A stretch of DNA of 64,000 bases from Mixophyes australis. Lineage: Eukaryota > Chordata > Amphibia > Anura > Limnodynastidae. The notes under the pieces are model-generated. The model was given only the letters and a program-made list of their open reading frames with translations, was not told where the DNA came from and ran no database searches. The translations under genes and the position numbers were made by a program. Position 1 is the stretch's first letter, and every line of letters begins with the position of its first letter. The DNA is taken from contig JAVHZZ010000017.1 in NCBI GenBank assembly GCA_036250195.1, forward strand, positions 2,170,001 to 2,234,000. The letters are read 5' to 3'. Positions 34,001-58,934 of the stretch are shown here, piece by piece.

Positions 34001-34001
34001 C
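33955..34001. repeat. (ATA)n microsatellite
   Basis: About 15 ATA/AAT trinucleotides. The flanks on both sides share CCCATTATAAACAGTGTGTGT- and CTATATAGATTATTATCC-like segments, an older short tandem duplication (33790-34110). Confidence 0.9.
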
Positions 34002-34608: not shown

Positions 34609-34633
34609 GTAAGAAGTAGTGATGTGATGGGGA

Positions 34634-35090: not shown

Positions 35091-37100
35091 AGTCTCTTCC
35101 CCACACGGCCCCTCCTCAAACAACAATAACCTGACAACAGTTGCTAACTTTTCTCTGATATTCCCCATGACACGTATTACATGATCTTTTCCCTGACAGG
35201 CCTCCTGCCCACAATCGTGTCTCACTGCTGCCCACCAGCTTTTACCTCACAGGCCCCGCTGCCTCAATCCTGACACCTCTCTTACTTCAAAATGAAAGAG
35301 GCGCCTTTTATTTGAAAGAGGAGTAGATCCTTACCAGTGAATGAGATAATAATACAGAGATCATTGTTGCCATAGATGTTAGGGTTTTCTTTTTTTAACT
35401 GTATCTAGTCAGAGTTTAGTTAGATGATATTATCATTACAGGCCATTAATATAATTGCTTTTGTCACAAACTGTACATAAGACACCTCAATTATCTCACA
35501 AAAATAACAATACATCCAGATTTCTATGCACTGTTTTTAGGTGGCATACTTCACCCTTCTCACTTATCCATAACTTTAAGTTTTGGTATACTTCAGGCAT
35601 TAATTGGGGATACCAGGAACCACTGTAGTATATTGTAGGGAACAGGCGAAAGGGCCATTTAAGACATCCTAGAAGTTCACCGACACTCCTCCTGCTCTAT
35701 ACTCTTCTCTCCTGTTAGGCCTTCAGTTTAGATTAAGTGCCCCCCCCCCCCCCTTCACAATGCTGGGTTCCTCTGCGGGACCTAGGTATAGACGCTACAG
35801 ATGTTCCCAGGTAGTGATTGCAGGAATGGCCGTCACTGCTTCACAGTGCTCTGTAGTGCACAGTGCTGGAAGATAGGTTTAGCAAGTTGGAATGGCTACT
35901 TGTTAGTGTTGGGGCAGCTTCATGTTTCCTTAAGGGGCCTGGGTCATGTGGGGGTTACTGGGTATATATAAGCCCCCACTGGGCACTGGATGTGTGGACG
36001 GTGAGTCCTTTTGTACAGCTACAAATGCATTTTTTCTTGTACTACAAAGCAATTTTTGTTACATACCATCCAGACTGCTGCAACCTCCATCTTGCTGTAA
36101 TGATATCTTGGTCCCCTACAGTCCATTCAAATAGTCGCTGCAGGAATAACCTCCCTACTCTCCATCATTAATTACTGTTCTGGTACTGAAATCATCTTGT
36201 TTTCCATTTTAATTATCTTTTCATTGCAAAAGTATTTAGAGCTGGCCAATCCATTTCCACCTGTTATATCTATTATCACAATCTGTACGTACCCACCCTC
36301 TGTTCACGTTGGCGCTTTATTTTTCCTAGGTTACCTCTGCTCTCAGGACTGCGACCCTTCTTGAATGCTGCCCCTGGAAATCTTCACAGAATGTCTGTCT
36401 GTCATGTATGGTCTCTAACTGCAGGACCCTGCTGAAAGCTCATCTGTTTACCGGACAGTTCACATAGTGCTTGTGACTTACTTCTCCCAGAGCTGCGCTC
36501 CAGAGGGTAAAAGGACACGTTCTGGTGCGGACTGTTATGTGTTTTCTTCTTTAAAGTATCCGTTCATCAAGCGATATTAACGAAGGAGTACACAAGAAAC
36601 ATAATAAAAACAGTTTAATTATTTTATTTCTACTCCTGAACTTCATGTTATTATCCCACCTGATGAATTTAACGCGAAGAGTGATAGTTGTGTTGTCACT
36701 TGTTATGATGAGGACCAGCAAGTGGAATATATAACCTGATATTGTAAATGGACGTTATCAGACATTTGTGTGCGCTGTTACATACTACAGACAGCTGAGC
36801 TTTGTAATATATATTTGAATATTTTGTAACCAATACATAATGTGATGTAAACAACCTACTGAAAGCAGATTTTTTTTTTTTTGTATATTTGAGAGTGAAG
36901 GGTTGTTATAAAGAAGTTATTTCTTACACCATTAATATTACAGCATCTTTATTATTTTGCCTGCTATACTTTCTCCAAAACATCTCAATCTTTAGTATAT
37001 CAAGTCTGTATTTTACCTGTAATTTCTATGCCAACCAAGGTTCCCCCCCAGCAGTGGAGGACCCAGGAGGGGGCGAGTGATCCAGGGGCTGGCGGGACCA
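35091..37100. other. Non-coding stretch
   Basis: No gene supported. It contains a poly-C run at 35741-35754 and a worn fragment of an anuran repeat at about 36060-36530 (GACTGCTGCAACCTCCATCT, CATCTGTTTACC). Confidence 0.4.
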
Positions 37101-37107
37101 CCACACT

Positions 37108-37335
37108 CATTGGGGTATATTTACTAAACTGTGGCTTTGAAAAGGTGGAGATGTTTGAAAGTAACACGGCCTGTGCACTATTACTGTTACTACGGTAATA
37201 GTGCGCATTATTACCGCTAGTGCGGTAAGTTTTAACGCTGTTTGTTTTGCTCAGGGAGCAGCGAGCAGACGTCCGGGTTCAAATTACTGTTATCAACGGT
37301 GATAGTGCAGAAGCCGATTGAATTCCCCCCTAGGA
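37108..37335. mobile_element. Composite MITE fragment
   Basis: The left end GGGGTATATTTACTAAACTG is a common frog MITE end. The rest (GTGCACTATTACTGTTACTA, CGGTAATAGTGCGCATTATT, CCGATTGAATTCCCCC) matches the MITE at 50053-50282 and looks like one element inserted in another. Confidence 0.55.
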
Positions 37336-37572
37336 TGATCTTGTTGTTAGATGTGTACACATTCATATGAATTGTTAACGAGTAACCACAAGAGAAATTA
37401 GCTCTTAAAAGTTTGTCCTCGTATGTACATTTTATCAAAATAAAAAATAAATGGCTAAACTAATGTTATTATTTTGTTAGGGTGACTTGGAACCAAATTC
37501 AAGACACGCTGCCCACATTATACTATCATGTTACTTTGTACTGATACTACCTCAGTGATATAAGACAGTAGT

Positions 37573-37780
37573 AGACTTACAAGATTTCAATCTTGAATCA
37601 ATATAAGCCAATATGTATACATGGATATCCTCCTGGAATCTTGTCCTCTTACTGGATCTCCTTTATGATAGGTGCTCAAAAGACAAGTGACAACTGACCT
37701 GACAAAGCACCAAAGAAGCATAAAAGCAATGTATAATACAAATATTGGCTTATATTGATTCAAGGTTGAAATCTTGTAAG
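37573..37780. mobile_element. Palindromic MITE with ~40-bp inverted ends
   Basis: ACTTACAAGATTTCAATCTT and GAATCAATATAAGCCAATAT at the left are mirrored at 37739-37780 with one or two mismatches. The ~125-bp centre has no coding potential. Confidence 0.85.
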
Positions 37781-38689
37781 TGTATATCCGATAGGGGATT
37801 GAGAACACCCATCACGTGGTGTTTTTGTCGTAATTATCAACCCCCACTGGATCCTTGGGATATTTAGTGGTTTTCTGTGTAACCACATATTATATGTTAC
37901 GCTATGATATGATTTTTTCTTTTCACTTTTTTTTATGTGACCATAATCGTGGTGAATGCCAGAAATCTGAAAGTTACTTTGATCACTGCAAACTTCTGGA
38001 ATTTGTGGAAGACATACATCAAGATGGAAAGAATATATATATATTATTTCACAGTTGACTCTTTAAAACTGTTATTTTAGCACATTGTGTGTGTGTGTGT
38101 GTGTGAGAACAGAGGGTGCTTTCAGTTGGCCTGCGCAAATATACCAATCTTTTTATTGTATTATAATCAACAATTGTCTGAGACGCAAGAGGAACCAAGT
38201 ATGACAGCCAGCATCCTGCTGCACAGCGGATCACTAAAGCCACGACAGCTATGTTATCACTGGATGTGAGTCCAATTTCCCCATCAATGCATCAGGTTTT
38301 AACCAATTAGTTTAGATCATGTGTCCACGTTACCAAATTCCATCACAATCCCATTTCTTCTTAACAGCAATTGCTGTATTGTGAGGTTAAACAAAAAGCC
38401 ATTCAGTCCCTAGAAAATGCCATTGTACCGACTGTCCACTTAGCTACAGATATGTGACAAGCGGTACTGGTCAAACAAAAGACTATATAACCGTGACAGC
38501 CCACTGGGTTGGTGTATCGCCTTCAAGTGCAGCAGCAGCAGCATCATCATCATCATCATCATTCCTCCAGCATAATACACAGTGTCAGGTCATTCACCGC
38601 ACCCTGCCATATAGCTGCTCACTAGGACAGATGTGATGCTGCCCCTCACACACAATTACCTTCACAGACAAACATTTAGATTGTAAAAG

Positions 38690-38725
<36 letters not shown>

Positions 38726-39264
38726 TTTGTTTGTGGGGGGAGGGGGGGTGCTGCTCACAATTAAACAGTTCCCTATTTTTCCCCACTAAATATTTCAGAT
38801 GTCACTGTTACTGCCCCTGGCACTACTGTCATCAGATTTAAACATCTTTGATTTTAAAAGCAAGAAAGAATAGTTTTTGTTAACGCTTAAATAGTTTAAT
38901 AATATACCCACCTGCTATCACTTCTAAATGGCAGCTGAGAACAGGAAGGACGGCTATACATTGAAAATATCGATCCAATACTCACGAGATCTGACATTTT
39001 ACATGAAATGACATTTTGCCTCATTTTCAGATCGGAATTTGGAGCAAGACGCCGAGTCATGTCTCAATTCGACTCTGTACCCTAAAATTCCTGTCTATCT
39101 AATTCTATCTCCGTACCGCTCATCTCTAGTGAAACATAAAAAAACAAAATGTGGGGGAAAAGTAAAAATTCTTCTTGTTTCACACACAACAATGGGAAAT
39201 ACCCCACTAAGTAGTCTTATGCCAATATATAGATAGTTTTTTATAACATAACCATTCAGGTCAT
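37781..39264. other. Non-coding stretch with microsatellites
   Basis: (GT)n at 38085-38105, (ATC)n at 38541-38563 and (TA)n at 38693-38721. No gene supported; short open frames here lack any recognisable domain. Confidence 0.5.
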
Positions 39265-39371
39265 GGCTTCACCTCCCCATGATTCACACAGTTCATCCAT
39301 GTTACACATATGTACATAACTAAGACATAGGGCTGTCATACATATGGCCATTTACAGGTACACGGCTCTCA

Positions 39372-39505
39372 ACCAATGGCTGATCAGGGATTACTGGGCA
39401 CTGAGCTACCTGGGTTGGTGATGTCACAGAATTCTCTTCAATCTGATTGGTTGGAAACAGCTGTTTACACTTGAATCTCAAACAGAGCGTCAGTTATCTC
39501 CACAG
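39372..39505 (+). promoter_or_regulatory. Promoter-like cluster and exon-like donor, copy 1
   Basis: Order: CCAAT (39373), CCTGGGTTGGTGATG (39409-39423) overlapping TGATGTCA, a 19-bp gap, then CTGATTGG (39443-39450), followed 55 bp later by CTCCACAG|GTAATG (donor at 39506). The arrangement resembles the X1/X2-Y module of MHC-type promoters, but it is only a motif match. No TATA box precedes it. Confidence 0.4.
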
Positions 39506-40242
39506 GTAATGTAACAAGACTGGGACGGGGATTATATTATAAATGGGATATATTCAGGGGGTGAGAATAATTTACAGTCTGTGTATTCCTGGTTTACCCA
39601 TCTCTAAGCCCTGTGTTAATGGCTTTAACCTGGTAACAATATTTACAGTACAGTATAAGTATAAAAACTTGGACCTGATTTTAAACCCAAATACATGTAA
39701 AAATCCAATTAAAAAGTAATGTGGAAAATAGATATTTGAGTAATGTCAAATACTTTACTGAAACAACATATCTTCATGTAGCTACTTCTGCCATTGATTT
39801 AATTACCTATGACAGTAATTAACAAGCTTAGTGGGAAACAGTCACTATCATATTTTTACAAGAACTATATTTAATGCTGCAGTTTACATTAGAACGTTAC
39901 ACATGAGAACATTTGATTTTGGCACACTGGGTAAGCACTTGCTAAGGTGATTATTTTAGTCTGGTGTAAGGTCCTAATGCAGGTTACCCATAGACTGGTC
40001 ATTAGGATACCTCCTACCTGCCATCAGAAATGTTAATAGGTACAGAATTCAAGATAACTGGGGGAGATTACTTTGTGGTTTGCTTATGAGTAGTGACTAA
40101 CGAGATTGTGTCTGACCTAACAGATTGGCAGATTCACAAGTAATTCCCCATGATTCACATAGTTCATCCATGTTACACATATGTACATAACTAAGACATA
40201 GGGCTGTCATACATATGGCCATTTACAGTTACACAGCTCTCA

Positions 40243-40376
40243 ACCAATGGCTGATCAGGGATTACTGGGCACTGAGCTACCTGGGTTGGTGATGTCACAT
40301 AATTCTCTTCAATCTGATTGGTTGGAAACAGCTGTTTACAGTTGAATCTCAAACAGAGCGTCAGTCATCTCCACAG
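40243..40376 (+). promoter_or_regulatory. Promoter-like cluster and exon-like donor, copy 2
   Basis: Same motifs as copy 1: CCAAT at 40244, TGATGTCA at 40290, CTGATTGG at 40314, donor CACAG|GTAATG at 40377. All elements and spacings are conserved. Confidence 0.4.
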
Positions 40377-41114
40377 GTAATGTAACAAGACTGGGACGGG
40401 GATTATATTATAAATGGGATATATTCAGGGGGTGAGAATAATTTACAGTCTGTGTATTCCTGGTATACCCATCTCTAAGCCCTGTGTTAATGGCTTTAGC
40501 CTGGTAACAATATTTACAGTACAGTATAAGTATGAAAAGAATGTGGACCTGATTTTAAACCCAAATACATGTAAAAATCCAATTAAAAAGTAATGTGGAA
40601 AATAGATATTTGAGTAATGTCAAATACTTTACATGAAGCATATCTTCATGTAGCTACTTCTGCCATTGATTTAATTTCCTATGACAGTAATTAACAAGCT
40701 TAGTGGGAAACAGTCACTATAATATTTTTACAAGAACTAAATTTAATGCTGCAGTTTACATTAGAACGTTACACATGAGAACATTTGATTTTGGCACACT
40801 GGGTAAGCACTTGCCAAGGTGATTATTTTAGTCTGGTGTAAGGTCCTAATGCAGGTTACCCATAGACTGGTCATTAGGATACCTCCTACCTGCCATCAGA
40901 GACGTTAAGAGGTACAGAATTCAAGATAACTGGGGGAGACTACTTTGTGGTTTGCCTATGAGTAGTGACTAACGAGATTGTGTCTGACCTAACAGATTGG
41001 CAGATTCACAAGTAATTCCCCATGATTCACACAGTTCATCCATGTTACACATATGTACATAACTAAGACATAGGGCTGTCATACATATGGCCATTTACAG
41101 TTACACAGCTCTCA

Positions 41115-41248
41115 ACCAATGGCTGATCAGGGATTACTGGGCACTGAGCTACCTGGGTTGGTGATGTCACAGAATTCTCTTCAATCTGATTGGTTGGAAA
41201 CAGCTGTTTACAGTTGAATCTCAAACAGAGCGTCAGTCATCTCCACAG
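41115..41248 (+). promoter_or_regulatory. Promoter-like cluster and exon-like donor, copy 3
   Basis: Same motifs, with CTGATTGG at 41186 and donor CACAG|GTAATG at 41249. This is the copy nearest the mini-exon gene, 2.7 kb upstream of its first recognised exon. Confidence 0.4.
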
Positions 41249-41436
41249 GTAATGTAACAAGACTGGGACGGGGATTATATTATAAATGGGATATATTCAG
41301 GGGGTGAGAATAATTTACAGTCTGTGTATTCCTGGTTTACCCATCTCTAAGCCCTGTGTTAATGGCTTTAGCCTGGTAACAATATTTACAGTACAGTATA
41401 AGTATGAAAACTTGGACCTGATTTTAAACCCAAATA

Positions 41437-42150
41437 TCTCTAAGAATTTGAAGGTGAACACAAAAGGGAACATTTTCCAAAATGGTTTTACAGAAAATGT
41501 GTATTATTATTATTATAATTATTATTATTATTATTATTATTTATTTTTAAGGCCAAATGTGCTTTACAGATTAGTGAGTAAAACATGTCATACATAAAAC
41601 AGCTACATACAATATAGATAAAATAAATGCTAATATAAAAACCAAGGGTAGGGAGAACCCTTCTCCTGAGAGAGCTACAATCTAATTATAGCAATAAAAG
41701 TGCAGCAAATAATGTATAAGCCAAAAATGCCCCATAGCTAATAAAAAAATGCCCCAGTTAGTGCCTTGTGCATTTCCTACACCAGGTCTGACGTTCTATG
41801 GGCCCTAGTGATAGTCTCCAGCCCTTTATTCAGGTAAGCCCACTTGTGGGGTCACAGGGGGAGCAGCAGAGTAACCTGTATATAATAAAAGAGTGAATCT
41901 ACAGGACTGTAATGGTGCCCATGTGCATTAGCCCCAATGTGAACTAAACTAATCCAGAACTAACAAAATGATTTTAGTCCATCTTGAGCCCCCCGTGATA
42001 GAGAACCAAAGATGGATGGAGAGAAAGGGGGTGAGTGGAAAGTAACAGAGATTAGAAAGGATGAGAAAGTAATGGGGTGAGGGGAGAAGGATGAGCGAGG
42101 GGAGACAAGACAAGGTTGGAGGTAAAGTGTAGAATACATTTAAACACAGT
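41437..42150. other. Non-coding stretch
   Basis: Contains a (TTA)n run at about 41501-41550 followed by a worn repeat-like segment (GGCCAAATGTGCTTTACAGA). No gene supported. Confidence 0.5.
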
Positions 42151-42453
42151 GGGCCTGATTCATTAAGGAGAACAAAGCAAAAAGGACTATATTTGATCCA
42201 AGACAAAACCAGGTTAAAATGTAAGGGGTGCAAATGAGTTTATTATTTTGCATATAAGTTAAATACTGGCTGTTTTTCCATGTAGCAAACAAATACTTGA
42301 TAGCTTTATTTTTACACTGAATTTTAAAGTTGACCTAGGACATGCCCTAGCCCTAAATTTACCCCCCCCCCCCCCTCTCCAATGCAACATGGTTTTGCCA
42401 AGGTGCAAAGTTACTCATTTATTTTGCTTTTCTTTCCTTAATGAATTAGACCC
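42151..42453. mobile_element. MITE (GGGCCTGATTCATTAAGGA family)
   Basis: Left end GGGCCTGATTCATTAAGGA and right end TCCTTAATGAATTAGACCC are inverted copies with two mismatches; AGT flanks both sides as a 3-bp duplication. The interior (GACTATATTTGATCC, ACTGGCTGTTTTTCCATGTA, ACTTGATAGCTTTATTTTTA) is shared with 44505-44816. Confidence 0.88.
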
Positions 42454-43941
42454 AGTACCTTTGGGACACATTTTTTGAGACCTGCTTTTAGTAACTTTTT
42501 TTATTAAATAATGAAGAGCTCTGAAAGTAACCATGTTTTGAATAATTTTCCTAACAACAGATTGATCGCTAAGTCTGACAAGAGACACAACAATGAGTGA
42601 AGACAAGCCTGTCATCCGCAGTTCTTCCAGATGTAAGAAAAATATAAATGTGTTCGTTAGGGCGGGGAACCCAGTGGTAATATCAAACAAGAATTTAATA
42701 CGGACATTTAGGGCACCCAGTGGTACACCCAGCACCCCCCATCCCCCATCTTTCATGTAAGTCCGATGTAACTTGTTGAGTCCTGAAGCCGCTGTCAGCA
42801 TGTTCTGTTACAGACAGATAGCGCTCACCTTCCGGTCCTGCCCTGGTCTCTGGCTGTAGGAGAGCAAACTGCCAGTAAGGGGTAAGAGAAGAACTGCTCC
42901 GGGCCCTGACAGCAGAGTTTGCAGGGTAGTTTGTTTTCTATGATTGTCAGCAAATTATGGCTCCATTTGTGTGTTTATTAACAGATTATGGCCCCGTTTT
43001 CTATGACTGATGCTATAATCCGGTGACAATTTTTTAACGTTATCACTAAATATTATATGGGAGCTGCTTTACATATATAAAATAGCAGATTTCCTCCAAC
43101 TGGATATGGGCTTTTTCTGGTAAGATATATTTTGGTTCCTCCCTATATCATGTTTGCGCCAATGCCTCTCAGTATGTGTTTTTTCCTTGTTTATGGTATA
43201 GTTTCACCACAATTGATAAGCAGTATGGTAGTTACCTCCCAAATGTCCCAATTTCAGCAGAAGAGTCCCGAATTTAGGGCTCTGTCCACTATCCTGCCCG
43301 GGGACATATTTGTCCAGCTTGTGGGAATGTTGGGATAAGGGCGATAGCTAATGACCACGCCCTCACTGTGCCTTGACCACGCCCCATCAAGATGTGGTCA
43401 TGTTTGTCTACTTTGTATGTCCCTGTATTTTGTATACTCTGTTTTTCCCAATACCTGTTCTGCCGATCACTGTGTTATATTACATATCAACTACGATAGT
43501 AATAATAATTAATGGGACTCATGTACTAGCCAAGGTCCACGGTTATGCCGCGGTAGCTAGCTTTTCCATGTAGATCAGTTATGGACTCTCTATCGGCATA
43601 GGCCACATTCTAATCGGAAAATTTCACAGAAGCGATGTTCAAATTGAAAGTCCCTTATCCCACCTGAGTGTCAGACGGTGCAGACTGGATCTACACACAA
43701 GAGGGAGCTATTGCACACAAAGGAACGCACATAAGAGACAACTGGGGAGGAACTAAGGGTGAAAGGCACAAAACAGGGATAATGAACAAACACATGGATG
43801 AAGATCAGACACATAAGGAACATGTTTAACAGATTTTATATTGCTAATACCATGGGGTAAATTAATGATAATTTATAGTAAAACAAAGTCACCCATCATT
43901 GAGAATATATTAGCTGATAATGAATATTCTTGTCTCCCCAG
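42454..43941. other. Region upstream of the mini-exon gene
   Basis: No coding exon recognised. At 42800-42886 a CG-containing segment ends CTGCCAGTAAGGG|GTAAGAG, a possible untranslated first exon. Small open frames at 43132-43338 and 43373-43573 have no recognisable features. Confidence 0.35.
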
Positions 43942-44033
43942 TGCCAGAAGCTGTAATGGAGACCCTCGTTGGAGATCCCAATGACACCTCCCGGAGGAAT
44001 AAGGAAAACATCGCTGGACATTCCATCGCTGAG
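43942..44033 (+). CDS. Mini-exon gene, exon 1 (first recognised)
   Basis: Acceptor TTGTCTCCCCAG; donor GCTGAG|GTAAAA. The first possible ATG, at 43956, has G at -3 and +4. It encodes METLVGDPNDTSRRNKENIA, then GHSIAE. The exon has an upstream acceptor, so at least one untranslated exon must precede it. Confidence 0.65.
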
Positions 44034-47000
44034 GTAAAATGTCTTGTCTACTATATTATATATGGAAGATCGTTGTTCAATTCTAAATTGAGGCACAGGT
44101 TAAGCTTCAACACATGTGACAATGCGCTTATGTTGTAATATTGTTACATTTTAGTTATATTATAAGTAATATTCAGTCTTTATTCCATGCCTCCCAACTT
44201 TTGCAATCCCCGAATCAAAACAAAACACAGTTTGCAGCAGTGCGTCCATAAATGGAGGTGTGGTCACATCACAATGGGTGCGTGGCCACACCCTCATGGG
44301 CACCCTTTACCCTCCTCCCCTAACAACGCCAAAGATTTTAGTCTCTTCTATGTATAAAGATGTACATGTAATATTATGGGCCAGATTCATGTTCAGACTT
44401 ATCTTGCGTGAAATAGACCTGCGCTTGCTCCAAAACGGACTTTACTCCAATTAACGCAATTGCATGTAATTCATGTCCAAAGCAAATGACACTTACGACT
44501 GCCTACAACACATAAGGGAACAATGGTGGCAAGGTTTTTCTCCTGGACAAAACCATGTTACAATGCAAGGGGTGAAAATAGGGTTATTATTTAGCACATA
44601 AGATAAATACTGGCTGTTTTTCATGTAACACACAAATACTTGATAGCTTTAATTTTACACTGAAATTTAAAGTTGATCTAGGACATGCCCAACCCCAACT
44701 ATAAATCTACCATGACATTTTAAATTTGCCTCCCACTCCAAGGCAACATGGTTTTGCCAAGATGCAATGTTACTCCTTTTTTTTACTTATTTTCTTTTCC
44801 TTAACGAATCAGGCCCATTGTATGTACAATATGCATTAAGGAGATCTTGATTTATGTATTTAATGTAAAAAAAATATAAATATGATTATACTGTTTAGAG
44901 TTGTTCATCATTTTTTTTCTAGGCTTTATTTAAATACCTTATATTGCACATACGCTTGTGTGTATACTGCGCTGTGCTCTGTTAATGTACAACATGTAAC
45001 GTTTAGGCAGATTGCACTTACACCCAGATTCAAACTGAAACACATCTTGATGTCCGCTTGGATTTGAATATGGGTTCCGTGATCTTTTCTTAAGAGCAAG
45101 TTAGGTGCAAGTTGCGTTCGGACTTGAATCAGGCCCTATATGAGCCTCCTCTTCAAGGTTCTCATGTTTCCCTAATATGATCCTCACCAGGTAGTGGTCC
45201 AGGTACCAGTTATTCCCACTAATGGTTCTTTAACATCCATCTTGCAAAGAGCCTGTGGTATGAATCAGCAGTCATTTTTATACCAGTATCATGTAAATTT
45301 CATCACTTAAATTCAAAGTTGAAATGTATTAATAGTCTCTAGTAACCTCTGTCCATGTTATTCCAATTCACTGGCTTTCCTTTGTATTGAGAGTCATTCA
45401 TTTGTTTCCCTCCTACAGTATGTTTGTAATGACATTTACTTTTTATTTTCCCGGTTGTCTTAGGAGAGTGTATCAAGCCCGAAGTCACCACCACAGGGAT
45501 TTTATGTGGGCTCCAGCTCGGAGGTATTTTCTACATATATAACTTTCTAAAGATATAAGTCTTTCCATCAGTGGACTCTTCATTTTATATTTACTTATTT
45601 TACACCAATGGTATATGGTTGAGGTTGAAGCCATAGGTCCTGGTGGTGATGTGATGGTGGGTGGTCTACAGCAACATCAAACTGTGTGGTGTGGTAAGAC
45701 AAAAAATGAAATCCAGTCCCCTGGATGAGTGTAATTAAAATGATTGCCCCCTTGTTGTTCATAATTAATCCCTAAATGATATTAATTATTATTAGTGCCC
45801 CCTTGATGATTATAAATTATAATAGTGCCCCCTTAATGATATAATTATTTTAGGGTTTCTCTCTTTTTTCGTCTCTCTTGTGTCCAGCACCTGTTCACGC
45901 AGTGTGTGCAGGGAGGCCCCTGGACGTGACGTAATAACGCTGTCATACTTAGGGGAGCCGGGGGCCCCTGCATACAGTCACATCTGGGACTAGGTGCTGC
46001 TGGCAATTAAGATGGCAATTTTTAAAGGAGAACCCCGGCGTGATCTGTGTATCTGCTAAAATGTAACATTCTCAACTTGTATAAGTTAATGGTAGATGCA
46101 ACTCATTTAGGAAATAGGACAGACTGTATAGGCGAGCATCACATATCTGGGGTTAACCATATTTACTTTTTATGTTCCCGGTTGTCTTAGGAGAGTGTAT
46201 CAAGACCGCAGTCACCACCGCGGGTATTTTATATGGGCTCCAGCTCGGAGGTATTTTCTACATATATAACTTTCTAAAGATATGTCTTCCCATCAGCGGA
46301 CTCTTCATTTTATATTTATTTATTTTACACCAATGGTATATGTTTGAGGTTGAAGCCATGTGTTGAGAGACTTTCATTTTTAAAACCCATATACTTCCTC
46401 CTACAATATGTTTGTAATGACAATTACTTTTACTGCCCCCGGTTGTCTTAGGAAGATGTACCAAGCGCCGGATCAGCACCTCCAGGAGTACATTTGGATT
46501 CCAGCTTGCGAGTAAGTATTGTCTAGGTATACAGCTTTCTAAACATATAAATCTTCCCATCAGCGGACTCTTCACAGATTGAATATGGTTGAGGTTGATG
46601 GGGCATGTTAGCGGTGGGTGGTCTACACCAACAGCGAGCTGGGTGGAGGGCTGGAGCAAAGATGAAATCCAGTACTTCTAAGGTACCAGATGCAAACATC
46701 CGATCTCTATTATCTGTCTGCTAATATGGGTCATTTCTATATCTGACCTTGAGAAAACTATCCTGTTCAGTCGTCACAATGACCGAAATATACTGTCTCC
46801 CGTTTTCTTTCTTGTCCTGGATTCATAGAACTCCCTTCCACTTACTTGTATAAGTATGAATGGAAGAGGTGTAACATAATCTACAAGAGTAGATCAGTTA
46901 GATCTGAATATTCCCACCGGTCTGTGAGGTCATTTTGGTGAATGATGTTTGAGAACAGAGATGTCTCATGTTTATAATGACATTTACTTTTTCTGCATCC

Positions 47001-47994
47001 TGTTTTCTTAGTGTCATGCACCAACACCGGATACAGATTTAGAAAAATATCTTCTGAATTACACCTTTAAGGTATGTTCTAGATATACAACTTTTTAAAA
47101 GACTCTCCATATTATATTTATTTAACACAGATGGAATATGGTTGAGGTCATGGGCCTTGCTGGTTGGTGATGGTGGGTGGTCTACAGCAATGTGTACATA
47201 TCAGATATCTATTATGCTCCTGTTAATATGAATAATTTCTATATCTGCACCTGATAAAACTATGCTGCCCAGTCATCACAATGTATAAAATATTCTGTCT
47301 TCTTCTTACTCACCCACTTGTATGAGTATGAATGGATGAGGTGTAAAGTAATCTCCTTCAGTAGATCATTTCGACCTGAATAGATCTGACAGTTCATAAG
47401 GCCACTATGGGGAAAGATGTTTGAGAACAGAGATCTCACATCTATAATAGAGTTCTCTGGAATCAAATTGAATAAGAAAAGGTTCCGTACAGAGAGTGCT
47501 TGTTATGTGGCCATGGTGCACTGCTGGATGACTGACAGTGATGCCTCAATCCCTGACCATGGTGATAGTATGGTGATGGTGATAGTATGATGTTTAAGGG
47601 CAAGTTACTCCACCCAGTGCAGAAACACAGGGCCAGGCCAGTGCCTCCTATAGAGAAGCACATGGCAGCAATCTGCACCCAGGAACTTCTAAGATAAGAG
47701 AATTATACAGGTCACTCTTTCTTGCTTTAAAGACATAAGAAGTTGGGCAGTCAGGTGACATTTTTCGGACTTTGAGGTCATTACTCATAAGATCTGGTTG
47801 ACCTGCTGTCATCATATTGTGAATGTAGCAAAGGAGGCAGAGCTAGATTAAGGATTTGGGGGGCCCAGGGTACTTAAGAGAGGGGGGCCCTATGGTCTAA
47901 CGTTAACAGCACAGTGCCATCATTCAGGGAGAGAGTTACTAAGTCACATAGTTCTAAACCTACTACAATAATACACTATTAAATGTCATGTATG

Positions 47995-48043
<49 letters not shown>

Positions 48044-50772
48044 TGTAGTAATGTAGTAATCTATGTATGAAATGTAAAATTTACGTAAATTCAAATTTGC
48101 AATATCATCCTAGACCCTAGTAACTCCTATTCTTGTTATAACAATTCACTGGATTTTCTCTGTATTCATTTTTAAAACCCATATTCTCTCTCTGTAATAA
48201 CATTTACTTTTTCTGCTCCTTGTTGTCCTATTAGTGCGCACCAAGACTGGAGTCACCGCCCCCAGGATTTTATCTGGATCACAGCTCGGAGGTATTTACT
48301 AAGATACAACTTTCTAAAAATATAAGTCTTCCCATCAGTGACCACTTCACATTATATTAATTTTACACAGATGGAACATAATTGAAGTTGAGGCCATTGG
48401 GCCTTGGTGGTGGTGGTGGGAGGTCTAAAGCAACAGCAAGCTGGGTGGAGGGGTGGAGGGGTGGCGCAGAAAAATGGAATCCAGTTCAGATACCAGGTAC
48501 AGCAGAGGATATGTGGAAAAATCAGATTTCTATTATGCTTCTGCTTATATGAGTAATTTTTATATCTGGGCTTGCAAAACATTTAGATTTCTGTTGAGAA
48601 CATGACAAAATATCCTACCCCACACTTGCTGCCTAGGTGTGATCTTTGGCTCAAAACTATCCTTTATTCCCCACATCCCATCTCTATCTCTCTGACCCCC
48701 TGACCAACATTGCTGTGTGACTGGATCATATAGCCCACTGAGCACTTTTTACAGTTGCAATCTGACCAATATACAATATATAGCACTTAACCTCATGTAT
48801 CAAACTTACATTGTCCCATAGGTTGTAAGCTTGTGAGCAGGGTCCTCTTACTTCTCTGTCTGTCTGTATTACCCAGTACTGTTTTATTACTGTGTTTGTA
48901 TCCATTTGTAAAGCACTATGGAATATGCTGGCGCTATATAAATAAATGATGATGATGATAGTACCAGAGGTAGCAAAAGTCAACACAAAGCCCAGGAGTA
49001 GAGCTGGACATCGGGAAATCTTCTACCTCCTGATAAAATTGATCTCTTTAGGATCGAGTGTTTGATTCCTGAGGGTTTCCCATTTCATGCAACGTTTGTA
49101 AATATCTGCTAAATTACACTATCAGTTACTCTGATATCCTACTATTAGTCTGGGGATGGTCTTCTCATTTGTTTGGTTCACGTGAAGTGCTATCCTGTTT
49201 TACGAGTACTAGGAATGTATCTTTGGCTGTAGCTCCTAAAATTTCAGTCCATTATTGGTATTTGGCTTCCGCATGTAGATTAATATAACAGACGCAACAC
49301 AAATATAATCTGCCTTGTTTGTTAAACCATGCGCATGTCCTTTTGGCTTTGTCTACCTGTTTCTTTTATTAAGCTGACATTCTGCTATCTATATGTCCTC
49401 TTTTTAATTTCTGTCCAATGCCGTCTACTTCTACTACTGGGAATGTCTTGTTATGATTGGTTACTGCAAGTTACAGCTCATCTGTGATATCTCCATCAGC
49501 TTAAAAAAACAAAACAACTTAATGCACATGCAGCCCCAGGAGTGAATTGCGTAAAACTAATGGTTGCTTCATGGTTAGGATATTGTACCTGTGTACATGG
49601 TTTACCCCATTGTGTAGTCATTCTTTTCATATGCATACATTTTATCAACAGTCAGAATTCTCAGCATCTGATGAAGTGAAGACAACTGAAGATGCTGGAT
49701 GTGAAGTTCCCATCAATGAGGTATGGTGGCTTTTTGACTTCATATTTAGATGGATTCTATTATCCTCTGCAAAAGGTCTGCTTGGCGGAAACAGATAGAT
49801 CAGGGGGCGGCTTTGCTAAGTGCAGATAAGGCGCACAACTGTGTCTAGTTTTGCACTGTTATTTTAATGAGTTAGTTTGGGAGGAGAAGCTGCTTTTAGG
49901 GAAGCAACTGAATATTTTGATGTTTGTATATGAGCCTTAGAGCTTCTGTAGTTCATCACATGACTTTATTAGAACACATAATGGTGAAGGAAGCTGGTAA
50001 AATTCATTATGTCCGCACAATTTGTGCTCTTTAATTAAGTTACATTCAGAGGAGGGAATTCAATTGACAGCATTACTCGTGAGAATAACGCGTTCCTTGC
50101 ACTATTAATGTTACTACGGTAATAGTGCACATTATTACCGTTAGTACGGTAATCTCAACATTGATTTTCGCCTGCAGCTCTGAAAGCCTTGAGTAGAGAG
50201 CCGCGTTAAAATTATCGTACTAACGATAATAGGGCGTGGGCTGCGTTATTGTCACGAGTAACGCTGCCAATTAAATTCCCCCATAGAACATCCAGGCCTG
50301 CGATAATAAATAATCCTTGTTACATTTACTAAGATCAGTATCAGTTTTCTTAGCAGGCTTGGACTCAAACTTTTTTCCCCTACAGAATACACATGAGAAA
50401 CAGACAGCAACAGAACGTCTTCATGCTCTATGCAGCTTGGTCTCAGACTGTACACCATCTCCACCAGAAAGACCGCATGCCTCAATTGACAACATCCCTT
50501 CTTCCGTTCCCGTGGTCATCACTACATCACCGCAGGTGGACACAAGAGAGATCACCATCGAGAATGATGCACAAGCAGATTTTTCATTCTTCTGTTTGTG
50601 CTCATGGTGCTGCCTTCCAGCAGACCAGCAGCAGCGGAGGCAACAGCAAACATCTGGCCCCCGGAGATCTCGTCTTCAGTCCCTGTGGAGGTGGATTCGT
50701 AAAAGATGTGGAAGGGTGGTTTCTGCGAGCAACATCAGTGGAAACCAAGACAATGGCAGCGCTGGGAACTGA
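43956..50772 (+). CDS. Unrecognised mini-exon gene, at least 8 exons, ~276 aa
   Basis: Exons: 43942-44033, 45464-45523, 46191-46250, 46452-46511, 47012-47071, 48235-48291, 49652-49720, 50386-50772. All have AG acceptors and GT donors, and all internal junctions are phase 0, so the joined frame has no stop from ATG 43956 (context GTAATGG) to TGA 50772. Exons 2-6 are 60, 60, 60, 60 and 57 bp and encode related units, e.g. ESVSSPKSPPQGFYVGSSSE. Flanking intron sequence is copied with them. Exon 1 has an NKEN box-like tetrapeptide (SRRNKENIAG). Exon 8 gives a Ser/Pro/Thr-rich segment, a Cys cluster (FCLCSWCC, a possible acylation site) and a basic tail (LWRWIRKRCGR). No domain was recognised; no signal peptide is evident. 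The protein is probably largely disordered, perhaps membrane-associated by lipid. Function unknown. The start, and whether more 5' exons exist, are inferred. Confidence 0.7.
44378..45137. mobile_element. Nested MITEs in intron 1
   Basis: Outer ends GGGCCAGATTCATGTTCAGA (44378) and GTTCGGACTTGAATCAGGCCC-like sequence (to 45137) are roughly inverted. Inside, about 44505-44816 is a relative of the MITE at 42151-42453, ending TCCTTAACGAATCAGGCCC. Confidence 0.6.
45464..45523 (+). CDS. Mini-exon 2 (60 bp)
   Basis: Acceptor CCGGTTGTCTTAG, donor CTCGGAG|GTATTT. Encodes ESVSSPKSPPQGFYVGSSSE. Confidence 0.7.
45524..46190 (+). repeat. Duplicated intron modules around mini-exons
   Basis: The sequence after each mini-exon (ACATATATAACTTTCTAAAG, CTTCCCATCAG, ACACCAATGGTATATG, TTGAGGTTGAAGCCAT) and before it (TTTGTAATGACATTTACTTT) recurs around mini-exons 2 to 6, out to about 48560. 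So the duplicated unit was exon plus intron, not exon alone. Confidence 0.8.
46191..46250 (+). CDS. Mini-exon 3 (60 bp)
   Basis: Same acceptor and donor as mini-exon 2. Encodes ESVSRPQSPPRVFYMGSSSE. Nine nucleotide-level differences or so from mini-exon 2, several of them replacements. Confidence 0.7.
46452..46511 (+). CDS. Mini-exon 4 (60 bp)
   Basis: Acceptor CCGGTTGTCTTAG, donor TTGCGA|GTAAGT. Encodes EDVPSAGSAPPGVHLDSSLR. Confidence 0.68.
47012..47071 (+). CDS. Mini-exon 5 (60 bp), most diverged
   Basis: Acceptor CCTGTTTTCTTAG, donor TTTAAG|GTATGT. Encodes CHAPTPDTDLEKYLLNYTFK. The flanking intron still matches the others (GATATACAACTTT after the donor). Confidence 0.62.
47998..48040. 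repeat. (TA)n microsatellite
   Basis: About 20 TA dinucleotides in the intron between mini-exons 5 and 6. Confidence 0.95.
48235..48291 (+). CDS. Mini-exon 6 (57 bp)
   Basis: Acceptor TTGTTGTCCTATTAG, donor CTCGGAG|GTATTT. Encodes CAPRLESPPPGFYLDHSSE, one codon shorter than the other units. Confidence 0.68.
48795..48965 (+). repeat. Anuran interspersed repeat end
   Basis: TTGTAAGCTTGTGAGCAGGG, CTCTGTCTGTCTGTATTACC, then TGGCGCTATATAAATAAATG and (ATG)n. A very common sequence in frog genomes; shares its end with 27760-27800 in the other orientation. Confidence 0.75.
49652..49720 (+). CDS. Mini-exon gene, exon 7 (69 bp)
   Basis: Acceptor TTTTATCAACAG, donor AATGAG|GTATGG. Encodes SEFSASDEVKTTEDAGCEVP, then INE; acidic. 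Not obviously related to the repeated units. Confidence 0.62.
50053..50282. mobile_element. MITE with ~40-bp inverted ends
   Basis: GGGAATTCAATTGACAGC and ATTACTCGTGAGAATAACGC at the left are mirrored by GTTATTGTCACGAGTAAC and GCTGCCAATTAAATTCCC at the right. The interior has several TACGGTAATAGTG / TTATCGTACTAACG palindromes. Lies in the last intron of the mini-exon gene. Confidence 0.85.
50386..50772 (+). CDS. Mini-exon gene, last exon
   Basis: Acceptor TTTTTTCCCCTACAG. Phase 0 frame: NTHEKQTATERLHALCSLVS, a Pro/Ser/Thr-rich part with PSSVPVVITTSP, acidic ITIENDAQADF, then the Cys cluster and Gln/Arg-rich basic end; stop TGA at 50770. A second frame (50393 onward) is also open and could be spliced at CATACAGG|GTGAGC near 50800, but its phase does not join exon 7. 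No AATAAA was found close behind the stop. Confidence 0.6.
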   Translation, partial: NTHEKQTATERLHALCSLVSDCTPSPPERPHASIDNIPSSVPVVITTSPQVDTREITIENDAQADFSFFCLCSWCCLPADQQQRRQQQTSGPRRSRLQSLWRWIRKRCGRVVSASNISGNQDNGSAGN

Positions 50773-51509
50773 GACATACCATCATGCGGCATACAGGGTG
50801 AGCTCATGTCTTGCACTGAAGGGTTAAGTTGTTACATAGTCTGATTCTACACATACTAACCTAGGAAACACCTATATTGTACTGATGCACTATCCACAAT
50901 GTTCTACACATATATACACCAAGAAAATAATAATCAGATTCTGTTGGCTGAATCCCAAGGATTCAACTAAACACAAATCTTCCTAAACCTGCTAGGAATT
51001 ATCCACATTTTAATCCAAATTCAGGATTCTGTACATCAATATATTTTACATATAATACATTTTCCACATTTAGAAATATAGCTGTAACATAAGTCTTCTA
51101 GTTTTACTCTTTCCTTCACCATCAGCCATCTAAAGATACAATATATTTACATAAATTAGTGGTCTTAAGTATGGATTTAACCAAATCTACCAGAGATCTT
51201 TAATTCTTCATATAAAACCTGCACATACTACAAATGTATTAGAAACATGAAATTATCTGATAGAAGAGGACTAGTGACTGTATCCGTCAGTGCAAGACAT
51301 TTCCCCTGTTCATGAGCACGGAAAGATGGACACTGTTGCTGATTTAACACCAGATGTTTCATATAGATATATAGATATATAAATATATAGATCTAATTGT
51401 TTAATTTAGATATACAGATATAGATGTTTATGTAATATGCTTAAAATATTGGTAGTTACAAAAAAACAAAAAAAACAAAAAAAATATTATAAGAGTAAGA
51501 GAGGGCTGG
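50773..51509. other. Non-coding 3' flank
   Basis: AT-rich, with ATAGATATAT repeats at 51363-51395 and an A-rich run at 51462-51485. No gene seen. Confidence 0.5.
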
Positions 51510-51767
51510 GATTAGTAGTGATATAAACACTGAGGGTGCATGTAGATGAAAAGGTTAAGGTGACTGGCGGGTCAGGTTCAGGGCAGGATCATGCGTCCTC
51601 CCTGGCAGGTCATCGAGTGTCCCCTGCACGATTGCCTCAAATTTAGTTGACCCAGGTCAGCGAGCAGGTCCAGTCGCGGTCGGCTGACCGTAGTTTGTTT
51701 ACTTTAGCACTGTTGGTGGATGCGGGGACTGCGGCTCCTGGGCCGGGGAGCTCTCTATCTGTTTCTC
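51510..51767 (+). pseudogene. Old Ngaro element, 5' end and start of gag
   Basis: GTGATATAAACACTGAGGG at about 51517 is shared with the A repeats at 58151 and 60515. The last 60 bp are an open frame (TAAPGPGSSLSVS) that continues in frame at 57292 once one TTCTC copy is removed. The gypsy element is therefore inserted inside this gag. Confidence 0.7.
51763..51767. repeat. Target-site duplication TTCTC, left copy
   Basis: TTCTC directly before the LTR, repeated at 57292-57296 directly after the other LTR. Confidence 0.9.
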
Positions 51768-52410
51768 TGTCATGACTGATAGTGGGTACCTGCTGTTGTT
51801 GGCGCAACTCAGAGGAAGGCGCGGAGTCTAACGTGCCCCTGGTATTCACCAGGAACCCCCGCAAGGAAGTATGGACTCCGCTGCAGGGACACGCAGGTCG
51901 CGGTCCTTCCTAGAGTCCACAGCGAGATACAAGGAGGTGTCAGACAGGCCGGGTCAGCAACGTTCAGGTAGAAGAGGTACAAAGGGAAATCCAGAAGAAT
52001 GGTGAGGCAAGCCGGGTCGGTAACTTTCAGGGAGAACAGTACAAAGGCAGAATCCAAATAGGGGTGGTCAAACGGTCCGGGTCAAAAGGTCACAAGCAGC
52101 ACGAGGATAGTCAGGAACGAATACAGCAACTGGTATACACAAACGCTGGAGGCAGGAAGACCTGATACTCTGGCACTGGTGAGAGGGCAGGAAGAGGTTT
52201 AAATACTGTGGTAACCCAATCAGAATCAGCGCTGCAGCGCTGTCATACCTGCCGCCGGGAATCCTTCATAGCGTCCCGTTGCCTAGCAACGGGGCGCGTC
52301 ATCACACCCAGAGGTCGGACGGCAGGGGGATCCGGAAGTGATGCGTCTGGTTGCTATGCAACCAGACGCGCTGTCAGCAGGCAGGCGGCCGTACGGAACG
52401 GCGCCTGACA
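51768..52410 (-). mobile_element. Minus-strand gypsy, 3' LTR (643 bp)
   Basis: TGTCATGACTGATAG...GCGCCTGACA; 643 bp, the same as 56649-57291. Three differences were noticed by eye (near 51772, 52382 and 52393), so the insertion is recent but older than the element at 12694. Confidence 0.95.
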
Positions 52411-52436
52411 GTATACCCTCCTCTTCCTCCTCCTGT
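52411..52436 (-). other. Polypurine tract, minus-strand gypsy
   Basis: On the minus strand, GGAGGAGGAAGAGGAGGGTA then TAC abuts the 3' LTR. Confidence 0.75.
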
Positions 52437-55400
52437 TTGAAGGAACATTTTAAGAATTCTAGGAGCGTGAAGGTCCTGCTTGTCCACCCATGATCTCTCC
52501 TCTGGGCCAAATCCTTTCCAATGGACAAGAAATTGCTGTTTGCCACGAAGAATGCGAGAGGCCAAGATCCGATTGACTTCGAATTCAGTTCCAGAAGAGG
52601 TTTGTATTGGTGGGGGACGACAGGGAGGTCGATAGAATTTATTGAGTACCACTGGTCGTAGTAATGAGACATGAAAAGTATTATGACATCTCAGAGAAGG
52701 AGGAAGTTTCAATTTATAGCATACAGGATTAATTACTTGCATGATGGTGTACGGGCCAATAAATTGAGGAGCCATCTTCATAGAAGGAACTTTTAGTCTT
52801 AGGTCCCGGGTGGATAGCCATACTTGGTCTCCCACCTTTAAGAGAGGAGTGGCCCTCCGATGACGATCTGCAAAGATTTTGTGATGCTGAGTAGCCTTGA
52901 GTAAAGCCATCTTAGTCTTAGCCCAAATGAGAGAAAACTCCCGATAAAGAGTATCTACGGCTGGAACCGGTGAAGAGGACACTGGAAAAGGATCCGGAAA
53001 CACAGGATGACTTCCATATACAATAAAGAATGGGGAGAATCCGGTAGACTCATGAATGTGTTGGTTATGGGAGAACTCCGCCCAAGGAAGTAATTGAGAC
53101 CATTTATTCTGATTGTCAGAGGTAAAACAGCGAAGAAATGTCTCGAGGTCCTGATTGATTCGCTCCGTCTGTCCATTGGTTTGAGGATGATATCCCGAAG
53201 AGAATTTCAATTCTATGTTCAATTTCCTACAAAAGGTTCTCCAAAAACGGGATGTGAATTGGACTCCACGGTCCGAAATGATCTCCTTCGGGCAACCATG
53301 TAATCTGAATATCTCCTTGATAAAGATATCTGCCAGACGACTGGCCGTGGGCAGTCCAGTTAGAGGAATAAAATGTGCCATCTTCGAAAATCGATCAATA
53401 ACCACCCAGATAGTGGTAAACCCTGCACTGTGGGGTAGGTCTGTGATAAAATCCATGGCCACACTTTCCCAAGGAGCATCGGGGATAGGGAGTGGACGAA
53501 GAAGGCCTGCCGGGACTCTTCTACAAGTCTTGTGTTGAGCACAAGTAGTGCAGGAAGCAATAAATTTACAAATATCGGCACGTACAGTAGGCCACCAGAA
53601 GCGACAGCAAAGCAACGATGTTGTCTTCTTTATTCCAGCATGGCCGGCAATGCGGGATGAATGAGACCACTGCAGGGTCTTGAGCCGGAGATGAGGTTCC
53701 ACGAATGACCGGCCTGGAGGAGGAGAGGACGTTTTGGTCCTAGTGAGGGCTACAATATTAGAAGGATCAATAATATGCTGAGGAACCAACGGTCTTAAAC
53801 GATCGGAATCGTCAAATGAGCGAGATAATGCATCGGCACGTCCGTTCTTGGCTCCAGGGCAGAATGTGAGCTTCATGTTAAATCGAGCAAAGAAGGATGC
53901 CCAGCGGGCTTGCCGAGGATTAAGGCAACGAGCCTCTTGAATGAACACTAGGTTCCGATGGTCGGTAAACACAGTAACAGGAAATATAGCCCCCTCCAAC
54001 AGATGTCGCCATTCCTCCAGAGCCGCCTTGATGGCCAGTAACTCCTTGTCCCCTATTCCATAATTACATTCACTTGGAAGAAATCGTCTGGAGAAAAACC
54101 CACACGGGTTGTGTGAGCCAGCAGGAGACTCTTGAAAAAGCACCGCCCCAATGCCTACAGAGGATGCATCTACCTCTAAGAAGAAAGGTCGTTCTTGATC
54201 TGGCTGGGACAGAACTGGAGCTGAAGAAAATGCTTTCTTTAAGGTTATGAAGGCAGACATGGCTTCCGAGGACCAAACCCTGGGGTTGGCAGTCTTCCTG
54301 GTTAAAGCTGTAATGGGAGCTATAATGGTGGAGAATCCCTGAATAAATTGGCGATAATAGTTTGCAAAGCCAATGAACCTTTGAATCGCTTTAAGGCCTT
54401 GTGGCTGAGGCCAGTCCAGAATAGCTGACACCTTGGTGGGATCCATACAAAGACCTTGACCCAACACAATGAAACCAAGAAAAGGTACCTGGCTAATCTC
54501 AAACACACATTTCTCCAGCTTGCAGTAGAGGTGATGTTTCCGGAGTCTACGTAAGACCTCCTTTACTTGTTCCCGATGAGTTTTCAGATCTTTAGAAAAT
54601 ATTAATATATTGTCTAAATACACTACCACAGAAGTGTATAACAGGTCATGAAAGATATCGTTAACAAAGGTTTGGAAGATGGCTGGGGCGTTGCAGAGGC
54701 CGAAGGGCATCACCAGGTACTCGAAATGTCCATCTCTGGTGTTAAAGGCCGTTTTCCATTCGTCCCTCTTCTTGATGCGAATCAAATTATAGGCCCCACG
54801 GAGATCTAATTTGGAAAAAATTTGAGATCCACTGAGTTTGTCAAAGAGGTCGGAGATGAGAAGTAGTGGATATCGATTTTTGACAGTGATGCGGTTGAGA
54901 GGACGATAATCAATACAAGGCCGAAGAGACCCATCCTTCTTCTTAACGAAAAAAAACCCTGCACCCGCTGGGGAAGTGGATTTGCGGATAAATCCCCGTT
55001 TCAGGTTTTCTGAAATATATTGAGACATGGCTGACGTCTCTGGACGAGATAAAGGGTAGGTCCGCCCTTTGGGGATGGGTTGGTCAGGAGATAAAACAAT
55101 AGCGCAATCCCAGGGACGATGAGGAGGCAAGATCTCCGCTTCCACCTTACTGAATACATCTTGGAATTCCATATAGGCCTCAGGAAGATGGGTTAGCTCG
55201 GAATGAGCCATTACTTGACATTTTGAAGGCAAGACTCTAGACAGACATTCAAAGCGACATCCTGAACCCCACGACATAACTTGAGCGTGGTCCCAATCCA
55301 TCTGAGGAGAATGCTTTCTCAGCCACGGTAGCCCCAAGATGAGGGGATTAATGGACCTCGGCAACACCAAAAGTTGGATCATCTCGCTATGAAGTACTCC

Positions 55401-55763
55401 TACCATCAACCGAACAGGAGAAGTCACGGAGGAGATGGAGCCGTGGGTGACACGACTACCGTCGACTGCCGTCAGAGATAACGGTTGAGGCAATGGGTTT
55501 AAAGGTATTTGGAGCTGCGAAGCTAGATCCGCCGAAATGAAGTTCCCGGAGAAGCCGGAGTCCACAAAGGCCGTGGTGGAAAAGGTACCCTTGGGGGTGC
55601 TCAGGATGACAGCCATCTGAAATTCTGGGGAATTTTCTTTAGAATAGGGAGCAACTGTGGATTCTCCTAAAACGGCCTCCCCGCCACCGTTTAGGAGGAA
55701 GAGTTTCCCGGTTTCTTGGGACAAACTCTTAGCAGGTGTCCCGGATCTCCACAATACAGACAC
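52437..55763 (-). CDS. pol: Gypsy chromovirus Pol, YLDN active-site mutant
   Basis: About 1110 codons, full domain order on the minus strand. Protease FVDSGFSGNFIS; reverse transcriptase LRPCIDYRPLN and VVVYLDNILIFS; RNase H FFLEVDASSVGIGAVL; integrase zinc region, then MDFITDLP, EIISDRGVQF, TNGQTERINQDLE; chromodomain FLVHWKGFGPEERSWV. The second Asp of the catalytic YLDD box is Asn (AAT for GAT near 54620), which should abolish polymerisation. The frame is otherwise open to 52374, entering the LTR. It is in the -1 frame relative to gag. Same lineage as the element at 12694-20965 but a different family with a short LTR. Start not fixed, as a frameshift product is expected. Confidence 0.95.
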
Positions 55764-56635
55764 AGGCGTTGTTTGAAGCGTCTCTCCCTCTCTTCAAGGG
55801 ATAATTTAGAGCGTCCTACTTGCATTGGTTCGTCCACTGGCAGGATGGGATTTTGGAACTGGGGTGCTAACCGTGGTATGAACCGTTTGCCAAGAGAGCG
55901 TTCCTGCGTGCGCTCTTGGTAGCGCAAATCCACCTTTATGCACATGGAGATGAGGGAATCTAACTCCGCCGGGAGTTCTCTGGAAATTAGCTCATCCTTA
56001 ATCCGGTCAACCAGACCTTGCCAAAAGGTTGCCACCAGTGCTTCGTTATTCCATTTTAACTCGGAAGCCAGGGTCCGAAATTGAACTGCGTATTGCCCCA
56101 CGGACAAGTCACCTTGGCGGAGGTTTAACAAGCTAGTAGCTGCAGAAGCAACTCTTCCGGGATCATCGAAGACTTTTCTGAAAGCTTCAATGAAGGAGTT
56201 GGAGCTATTAAGAAGTGGACCCCCTTGTTCCCATAAAGGTGAGGCCCAGGCAAGGGCTTGACCACTGAGGAGGGAGATGAGAAAGGCTACTTTGGTGCGT
56301 TCTGAAGAAAAGGCCCCTGGGTTGCACTCAAATTGAATGGCACATTGGTTCAGAAAGCCCCTGCACTTCTTGGGATCACCGTCAAACTTTTCGGGTGTCG
56401 GGATGCGTAAACCGGAGGCCGCTGTAGAGACCGTAACCACACTGGATGCTGTGGATGCAGAAGAGGTTATGGCTGGTGTAGCGGGTGAAGCATTCTGAAA
56501 TGTATCGAAGCGGGTAGCAATCCCTTGGACACATTGTAGGAGATGCGCTTGGGCTGCTTCTTGTTGCTCCACTCGTTGAGCCAAATGCAGGAGTAGGTCT
56601 CGAGCAGACGGTTCACCAGACCCCTCCGTTGTCAT
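55691..56635 (-). CDS. gag: Gypsy chromovirus Gag
   Basis: 314 codons from ATG 56635, 14 bases inside the 5' LTR (56649). Same plan as the Gag at 14715: RVEQQEAAQAHLLQCVQ, KFDGDPKKCRGFLNQC, QALAWASPLWEQ, VGQYAVQFRTLASELKW, and one CCHC knuckle CLYCGDPGHLLRVC. Overlaps pol by about 70 bp, as expected for -1 frameshifting. Confidence 0.95.
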   Translation of the reverse strand: MTTEGSGEPSARDLLLHLAQRVEQQEAAQAHLLQCVQGIATRFDTFQNASPATPAITSSASTASSVVTVSTAASGLRIPTPEKFDGDPKKCRGFLNQCAIQFECNPGAFSSERTKVAFLISLLSGQALAWASPLWEQGGPLLNSSNSFIEAFRKVFDDPGRVASAATSLLNLRQGDLSVGQYAVQFRTLASELKWNNEALVATFWQGLVDRIKDELISRELPAELDSLISMCIKVDLRYQERTQERSLGKRFIPRLAPQFQNPILPVDEPMQVGRSKLSLEERERRFKQRLCLYCGDPGHLLRVCPKKPGNSSS

Positions 56636-58366: not shown

Positions 58367-58653
58367 AAGTGAGTATGGGCTCTCTGCTGTCCTGGTTAGT
58401 ATTGCTACATAAACTGTTTTTTCACTGTGTTTTTTAACTGTGTTATACTGTTTTTGGTATTGCATTTATTGCTGTTATCGTGGTAATTTAAGTTGTATTT
58501 TCAGTGTTCTTTTCTTTTCACATTTTTTCCCAATCCATTCTCCTCCTTGTTTTCTCCACCTTATCTTTTTCCCTTAGTTCTTGTCCCTGCCTCCCCCGCT
58601 TTCCCCTCTCTCTTTTTCTTGTTTGTTTTTTGTTACCTTTTCCATCCCCCATT

Positions 58654-58851: not shown

Positions 58852-58934
58852 CGCGCACGCACGCGCATGTGCGTCAGTCCATCCCGATTCCGGCGGCCAT
58901 GTTAGATGCGGGCGCTCCAGGAGCGCCCGTGGAT

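Follow-up and report, generated by a model that had tools for sequence, protein, structure and literature searches.

A candidate protein-coding gene of Mixophyes australis with a middle region of tandemly duplicated 20-codon exons

Five homologous mini-exons lie in tandem within positions 43942 to 50772 of a 64,000-nucleotide stretch of the Mixophyes australis genome (hereafter the window). We interpret this locus as a protein-coding amphibian gene in which one symmetric phase-0 exon, along with its flanking intron sequence, was repeatedly duplicated in tandem to form the middle part, and give this interpretation a probability of about 0.55. The frame-preserving tandem duplication of exon and intron appears well supported by the alignments. 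That the locus is an expressed gene is indicated indirectly by an open frame, by splice-site shifts that preserve the frame and by steps in GC content, which together favour a coding gene. Divergence of the unit exons has been approximately three times as fast as that of the introns next to them, and this is the new result of the present analysis.

The proposed gene consists of eight exons, as follows.

Exon A, 43942-44033, + strand: ATG at 43956 in the context GTAATGG; N-terminus METLVGDPNDTSRRNKENIAGHSIAE; donor GAG/GTAAAA.
Unit exon 1, 45464-45523, + strand: 60 nt, ESVSSPKSPPQGFYVGSSSE.
Unit exon 2, 46191-46250, + strand: 60 nt, ESVSRPQSPPRVFYMGSSSE; the youngest duplicate.
Unit exon 3, 46452-46511, + strand: 60 nt, EDVPSAGSAPPGVHLDSSLR; 4-nt insertion at the donor.
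Unit exon 4, 47012-47071, + strand: 60 nt, CHAPTPDTDLEKYLLNYTFK; highly divergent exon sequence with GC 0.35.
Unit exon 5, 48235-48291, + strand: 57 nt, CAPRLESPPPGFYLDHSSE; ancestral acceptor AG lost.
Exon B, 49652-49720, + strand: 69 nt, SEFSASDEVKTTEDAGCEVPINE; weak acceptor (78th percentile).
Last coding exon, 50386-50772, + strand: 128 codons and TGA; cysteine cluster FFCLCSWCC and basic tail RRSRLQSLWRWIRKRCGR.

A preliminary description of this DNA had proposed phase-0 mini-exons of 60, 60, 60, 60 and 57 bp, a joined frame of about 276 codons and a C-terminal end with a cysteine cluster followed by a basic tail. Each of these points was borne out. With its coordinates, AG precedes all eight exons and GT follows all seven that need a donor; exon lengths are, in order, 92, 60, 60, 60, 60, 57, 69 and 387 nt, and every one of the seven introns downstream of exon A has phase 0. 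Joined, the exons keep a frame of 276 codons open, from the ATG at 43956 to the TGA at 50770-50772, while the two alternative joined frames contain 4 and 13 stops. The cluster and the tail are both found in the last coding exon. The intron after exon A also contains a repeat (44546-44817) about 80% identical to a sequence upstream of the gene (42202-42454).

The assignment of the last exon was considered separately. The duplicated unit exons might be real and the last exon be read in another frame or belong elsewhere, as could be suggested by the absence of clear base periodicity in this exon, by a second open frame that overlaps it (144 codons, 50393-50827) and by a donor-like CAGG/GTGAGC, noticed by eye, that follows the proposed stop near position 50798. 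However, the proposed frame scores best of the six frames there, though within noise, the end of exon B is in phase 0 and the acceptor of the last exon ranks at the 98.8th percentile, and we regard this alternative as improbable.

The evidence for tandem duplication comes from comparison of the units and their flanks. A 130-nt block made up of the exon and both intron flanks occurs five times, starting at 45427, 46154, 46415, 46975 and 48195, and the later copies are 92, 62, 63 and 67% identical to that of unit 1. A unit profile, built from the same five copies that it recovers, finds these five in the 64-kb window with E-values from 6.9e-61 to 9e-38, the next match having E = 0.027. No relatedness to the unit was found for exon B. 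Units 1 and 2 with their flanks (45434-45634 versus 46161-46359) are 93.5% identical over 201 aligned columns, and unit 2 is thus taken as the youngest copy. Two further duplicated stretches extend well into the introns.

Copy common to units 1 and 5, 45291-45717 versus 48072-48485, + strand: the exon with about 170 nt of upstream and about 190 nt of downstream intron.
Intron block after unit 3, 46698-46969, + strand: copied after unit 4 (47200-47441), 70% identical over 273 aligned columns.

Identity between the long copies of units 1 and 5 (45291-45695 versus 48072-48454) is 72.6% over 405 columns. The trees of exons and of flanks agree, grouping units 1 and 2, and 4 and 5, with unit 3 joining the latter pair. 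Units 2 and 3 are separated by an intron of only 201 nt that looks like the 3' flank of one unit fused to the 5' flank of the following one, as expected at the junction of a tandem duplication. The locus thus has homologous adjacent exons with homologous flanking intron, unit lengths that are multiples of three and the same phase at both ends of each unit, all of which mark a tandem duplication of symmetric exons.

The recurrence of intron blocks along with the five-copy 130-nt block agrees with the earlier proposal that the introns were duplicated with the units. The companion proposal, that all five exons encode variants of one Ser/Pro-rich unit, holds in part: all five are homologous at the DNA level, but in unit 4 the Ser/Pro unit is not recognisable. 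This exon keeps almost none of the motif, having in common 1 of 20, 1 of 20, 2 of 20 and 3 of 19 residues with units 1, 2, 3 and 5, respectively, while its introns are clearly homologous to those of the other units.

Alignment of the units revealed that two splice sites have moved relative to those of the other copies. In unit 3 there is a 4-nt insertion, and the GT presumably in use lies 4 nt upstream of the ancestral donor, so that the exon still measures 60 nt. The ancestral acceptor of unit 5 now reads AT, and an AG 3 nt downstream would give the exon of 57 nt. The sites used by these two units are our inference from the alignment. Each displaced site leaves the unit length a multiple of three. 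When splice sites were scored with a frequency matrix, 14 of the 15 ranked at or above the 87.8th percentile of the AG or GT sites of the window, the acceptor of exon B being the exception. Among the GT sites of the window, the fairly weak donors of units 1, 2 and 5 (GAG/GTATTT) rank at the 87.8th percentile, and the donors of units 3 and 4 at the 97th and 99th, respectively. Since the units are symmetric and these three donors weak, some units may be skipped with the frame intact, and splicing could in this way vary the length of the protein. Optional inclusion would fit units 1, 2 and 5, with their weak donors, but not units 3 and 4.

We then compared the divergence of the unit exons with that of their introns. 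Averaged over all pairs of the five units, the difference is 0.395 in the exon (60 columns) versus 0.142 in the 3' intron flank (44 columns), with p printed as 0.0000 in 20,000 column shuffles; adding the 5' flank brings the intron value to 0.173. The difference persists without unit 4 (0.306 versus 0.129, p = 0.0019). In a tree with separate partitions, the relative speeds are 1.64 for the exon and 0.55 for the flank, and the log-likelihood is -496.9 versus -507.8 with equal branch lengths (gain 10.9, p = 3e-6).

Distal introns were compared in the same manner, using the pairs 1-2, 1-4, 1-5, 3-4 and 3-5 and the first block of 4-5; pairs 2-3 and 2-5 and the second block of 4-5 were left out, the intron downstream of one unit being there the intron upstream of the next. 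In these blocks, which were chosen by local alignment and are biased to low divergence, 42 of 222 sites differ between units 3 and 4 versus 33 of 60 in the exon (36 of 212 versus 28 of 53 when CpG sites are removed), and 33 of 184 differ between units 3 and 5 versus 23 of 57 in the exon (p = 0.0007); for units 1 and 5 the comparison is not significant (43 of 225 versus 16 of 57, p = 0.098). Local alignment gave no distal-intron block for pairs 1-3 and 2-4.

The excess of exon changes over flank changes, in the pairwise differences as in the partitioned tree, is what would be expected if the unit exons were under diversifying selection, with unit 4 the most affected, a possibility compatible with the favoured interpretation. 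Unit 4 itself shows 16 private changes in 54 exon columns versus 5 in 75 flank columns (p = 0.0006), and the four pairs that include it have dN of 0.91-1.30 versus dS of 0.24-0.54. In the other four units together, however, private changes are alike in exon and flank (13 in 54 and 16 in 75 columns, respectively, p = 0.44). These counts indicate that the exon excess is largely, though not only, due to unit 4. Taken alone, the young pair of units 1 and 2 shows no significant exon excess (p = 0.28). The codon omega of 1.47 does not differ significantly from 1 (log-likelihood -257.20 versus -257.65, p = 0.34), and dN/dS lies below 1 in five of the six pairs among units 1, 2, 3 and 5, values that are rough, coming from 17 or 18 codons. 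Among these same units dS is 0.56-0.82, save for 0.08 between units 1 and 2; as dS in the older pairs is likewise higher than flank divergence, protein selection does not account for all of the excess. A raised mutation rate in the exons, or constraint on the proximal introns, may lie behind the remaining part. On balance we consider diversifying selection unlikely.

GC content is 0.51-0.58 in six of the eight exons versus 0.32-0.40 in the seven introns (exon A, 0.52 versus 0.37 in the next intron), and is not raised in unit 4 (0.35) and exon B (0.42). None of 20,000 stretches of 384 nt taken from the + strand at 27301-43900 is open, while the last exon is. A 60-nt stretch of nearby DNA is free of stops by chance with a probability of 0.33-0.35. 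Neutral simulation along the exon tree, rooted on unit 1, left all five units stop-free in 3.8% of 3,000 runs, and stop-free with homologous splice sites in at least three units in 0.9%; with flank branch lengths, the corresponding values were 25% stop-free and 17% with splice sites kept too. We regard the simulation as moderate support for coding constraint, short of proof.

Codon usage gave no coding signal: with scoring trained on the ORFs of the window itself, which are mostly from transposons, the last exon scores -0.021 and the joined frame -0.008, near the background mean of -0.030 and far below the training ORF mean of 0.142. On the same scale, the five units score -0.080 in the proposed frame, less than in another forward frame (-0.018) and in one reverse frame (0.110), and one reverse frame of the joined sequence (0.018) exceeds the joined frame. 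A scan of 50701-52600, up to about 1.8 kb past the proposed stop, found neither AATAAA nor ATTAAA as a poly(A) signal.

The lack of a codon-usage and a poly(A) signal in these searches, the ease with which a 60-nt stretch stays open and an omega that does not differ from 1 would all fit a decaying, formerly coding gene, whose exon array is left over from its coding past and still open partly by chance, with unit exons free of constraint. Such exons should nevertheless diverge at the intron rate and not at about three times that of the proximal introns, unless the latter are constrained; the frame has moreover survived two splice-site displacements, and the neutral outcome with open units and retained splice sites is found in the 0.9% of runs given above. 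Decay of the gene is in our view somewhat doubtful, and a coding gene remains our preferred interpretation.

The rest of the window is rich in repeats and mobile elements. Direct repeats at 12949-14669 and 19213-20933, identical at 1,719 of 1,721 positions, flank or overlap ORFs of 310 and 1,120 aa and presumably belong, as LTRs, to a young retrotransposon of Ty3/gypsy type. ORFs of 1,129 and 314 aa on the - strand at 52374-56635, about 1.6 kb downstream of the proposed stop, are taken to be a second gypsy-type element, and multiple - strand ORFs at 21641-24614 seem to us to resemble a DIRS-type element. An ORF on the + strand at 58493-59233 has a weak match to Phage_integrase (E = 0.0051), below the Pfam cut-off. 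Pfam also identified C2H2 zinc-finger ORFs at 7369-7953 (+) and 26470-27213 (-); the multi-finger C2H2 type is common in frogs. Tandem repeats comprise a 49-copy array of a 52-bp unit (3694-6237), the start of which is overlapped by a 125-codon ORF, and a minisatellite of 13.4 copies of a 34-bp unit with 95% matches (34632-35083). Scans of the window with Rfam (gathering scores) and for tRNAs were empty.

Searches for relatives of the predicted protein gave no family. Pfam returned none up to E = 10 for the joined protein, the last exon or a longer ORF (50317-50769), with HMMER filters that drop most weak matches; NCBIfam returned nothing up to E = 10 for the last exon, and neither did PDB, searched by sequence, for the joined protein. 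In the viral contigs of IMG/VR, 10 stretches match a short pattern, none of them encoding a relative of the last exon. A single-sequence structure prediction for the last exon reached a mean pLDDT of 41.6, with none of 128 residues at or above 70 and no reliable fold. A simple scan of 34000-43941 on the + strand, for one required phase, found no signal-peptide-like exon with a donor, compared with four candidates on the reverse strand as a control.

Inspection by eye likewise shows no signal peptide at the start of the protein, which would therefore probably be intracellular. We take the SPK and SPPR motifs to be possible proline-directed kinase sites, and the acidic SSSEE clusters to arise where unit 1 joins unit 2 and unit 2 joins unit 3. 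Together with NKENI and the cysteine cluster with its basic tail, these features presumably point to a phosphorylated, perhaps membrane-associated, intracellular protein. Among known families, the I-mfa domain family and, exon A holding NKENI, cell-cycle regulators with a KEN box were considered but set aside, as none of our tests spoke for either. The duplicated region would form a disordered Ser/Pro linker with possible kinase sites and acidic joins, each unit duplication lengthening it by about 20 residues, and the C-terminal cysteine cluster beside the basic tail may sit at a membrane. Unit 4 may have been rewritten in a burst, either by diversifying selection or by change on a spare copy.

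Genes with tandemly duplicated symmetric exons form a known class. The locus resembles them in that exon and flanking intron were copied head to tail, in phase 0, with copies that could be kept or skipped in frame; it differs in that the copies are short (20 codons) and Ser/Pro-rich. Secretory calcium-binding phosphoproteins, caseins included, have short phase-0 exons and acidic serine clusters of the SSSEE type. The locus shares the short phase-0 exons and has such clusters across exon joins, but no signal peptide exon appeared in our scan, the cysteine cluster and basic C-terminus set it apart, and, should coding extend beyond exon A in the upstream direction, the intron there would have a phase other than 0. 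Snake venom phospholipases A2 are an example of genes whose exons evolve faster than their introns. Here, too, exons have diverged more than proximal introns between duplicates, but secretion is not indicated, omega does not significantly exceed 1 and the excess falls mostly on one unit. The anatomy of the locus is therefore unusual within a class of architecture already known, to which it adds the concentration of divergence in the exons of duplicated units.

A broader proposal, which we hold to be quite unlikely as a whole, is that this is an amphibian lineage-specific gene in which a symmetric mini-exon was duplicated repeatedly and spare copies were rewritten fast while their introns stayed recognisable, such duplication and later diversification confined to the exon yielding new 20-residue linkers, with length variants between individuals or splice forms. 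If the locus is expressed, it would show a protein region growing stepwise out of a single exon, in which a recent copy (unit 2) stands next to older ones (units 3 to 5) and one copy has already been transformed. The fates of duplicated exons, whether kept, skipped or rewritten, could then be compared within a single gene, with its own introns as the yardstick.
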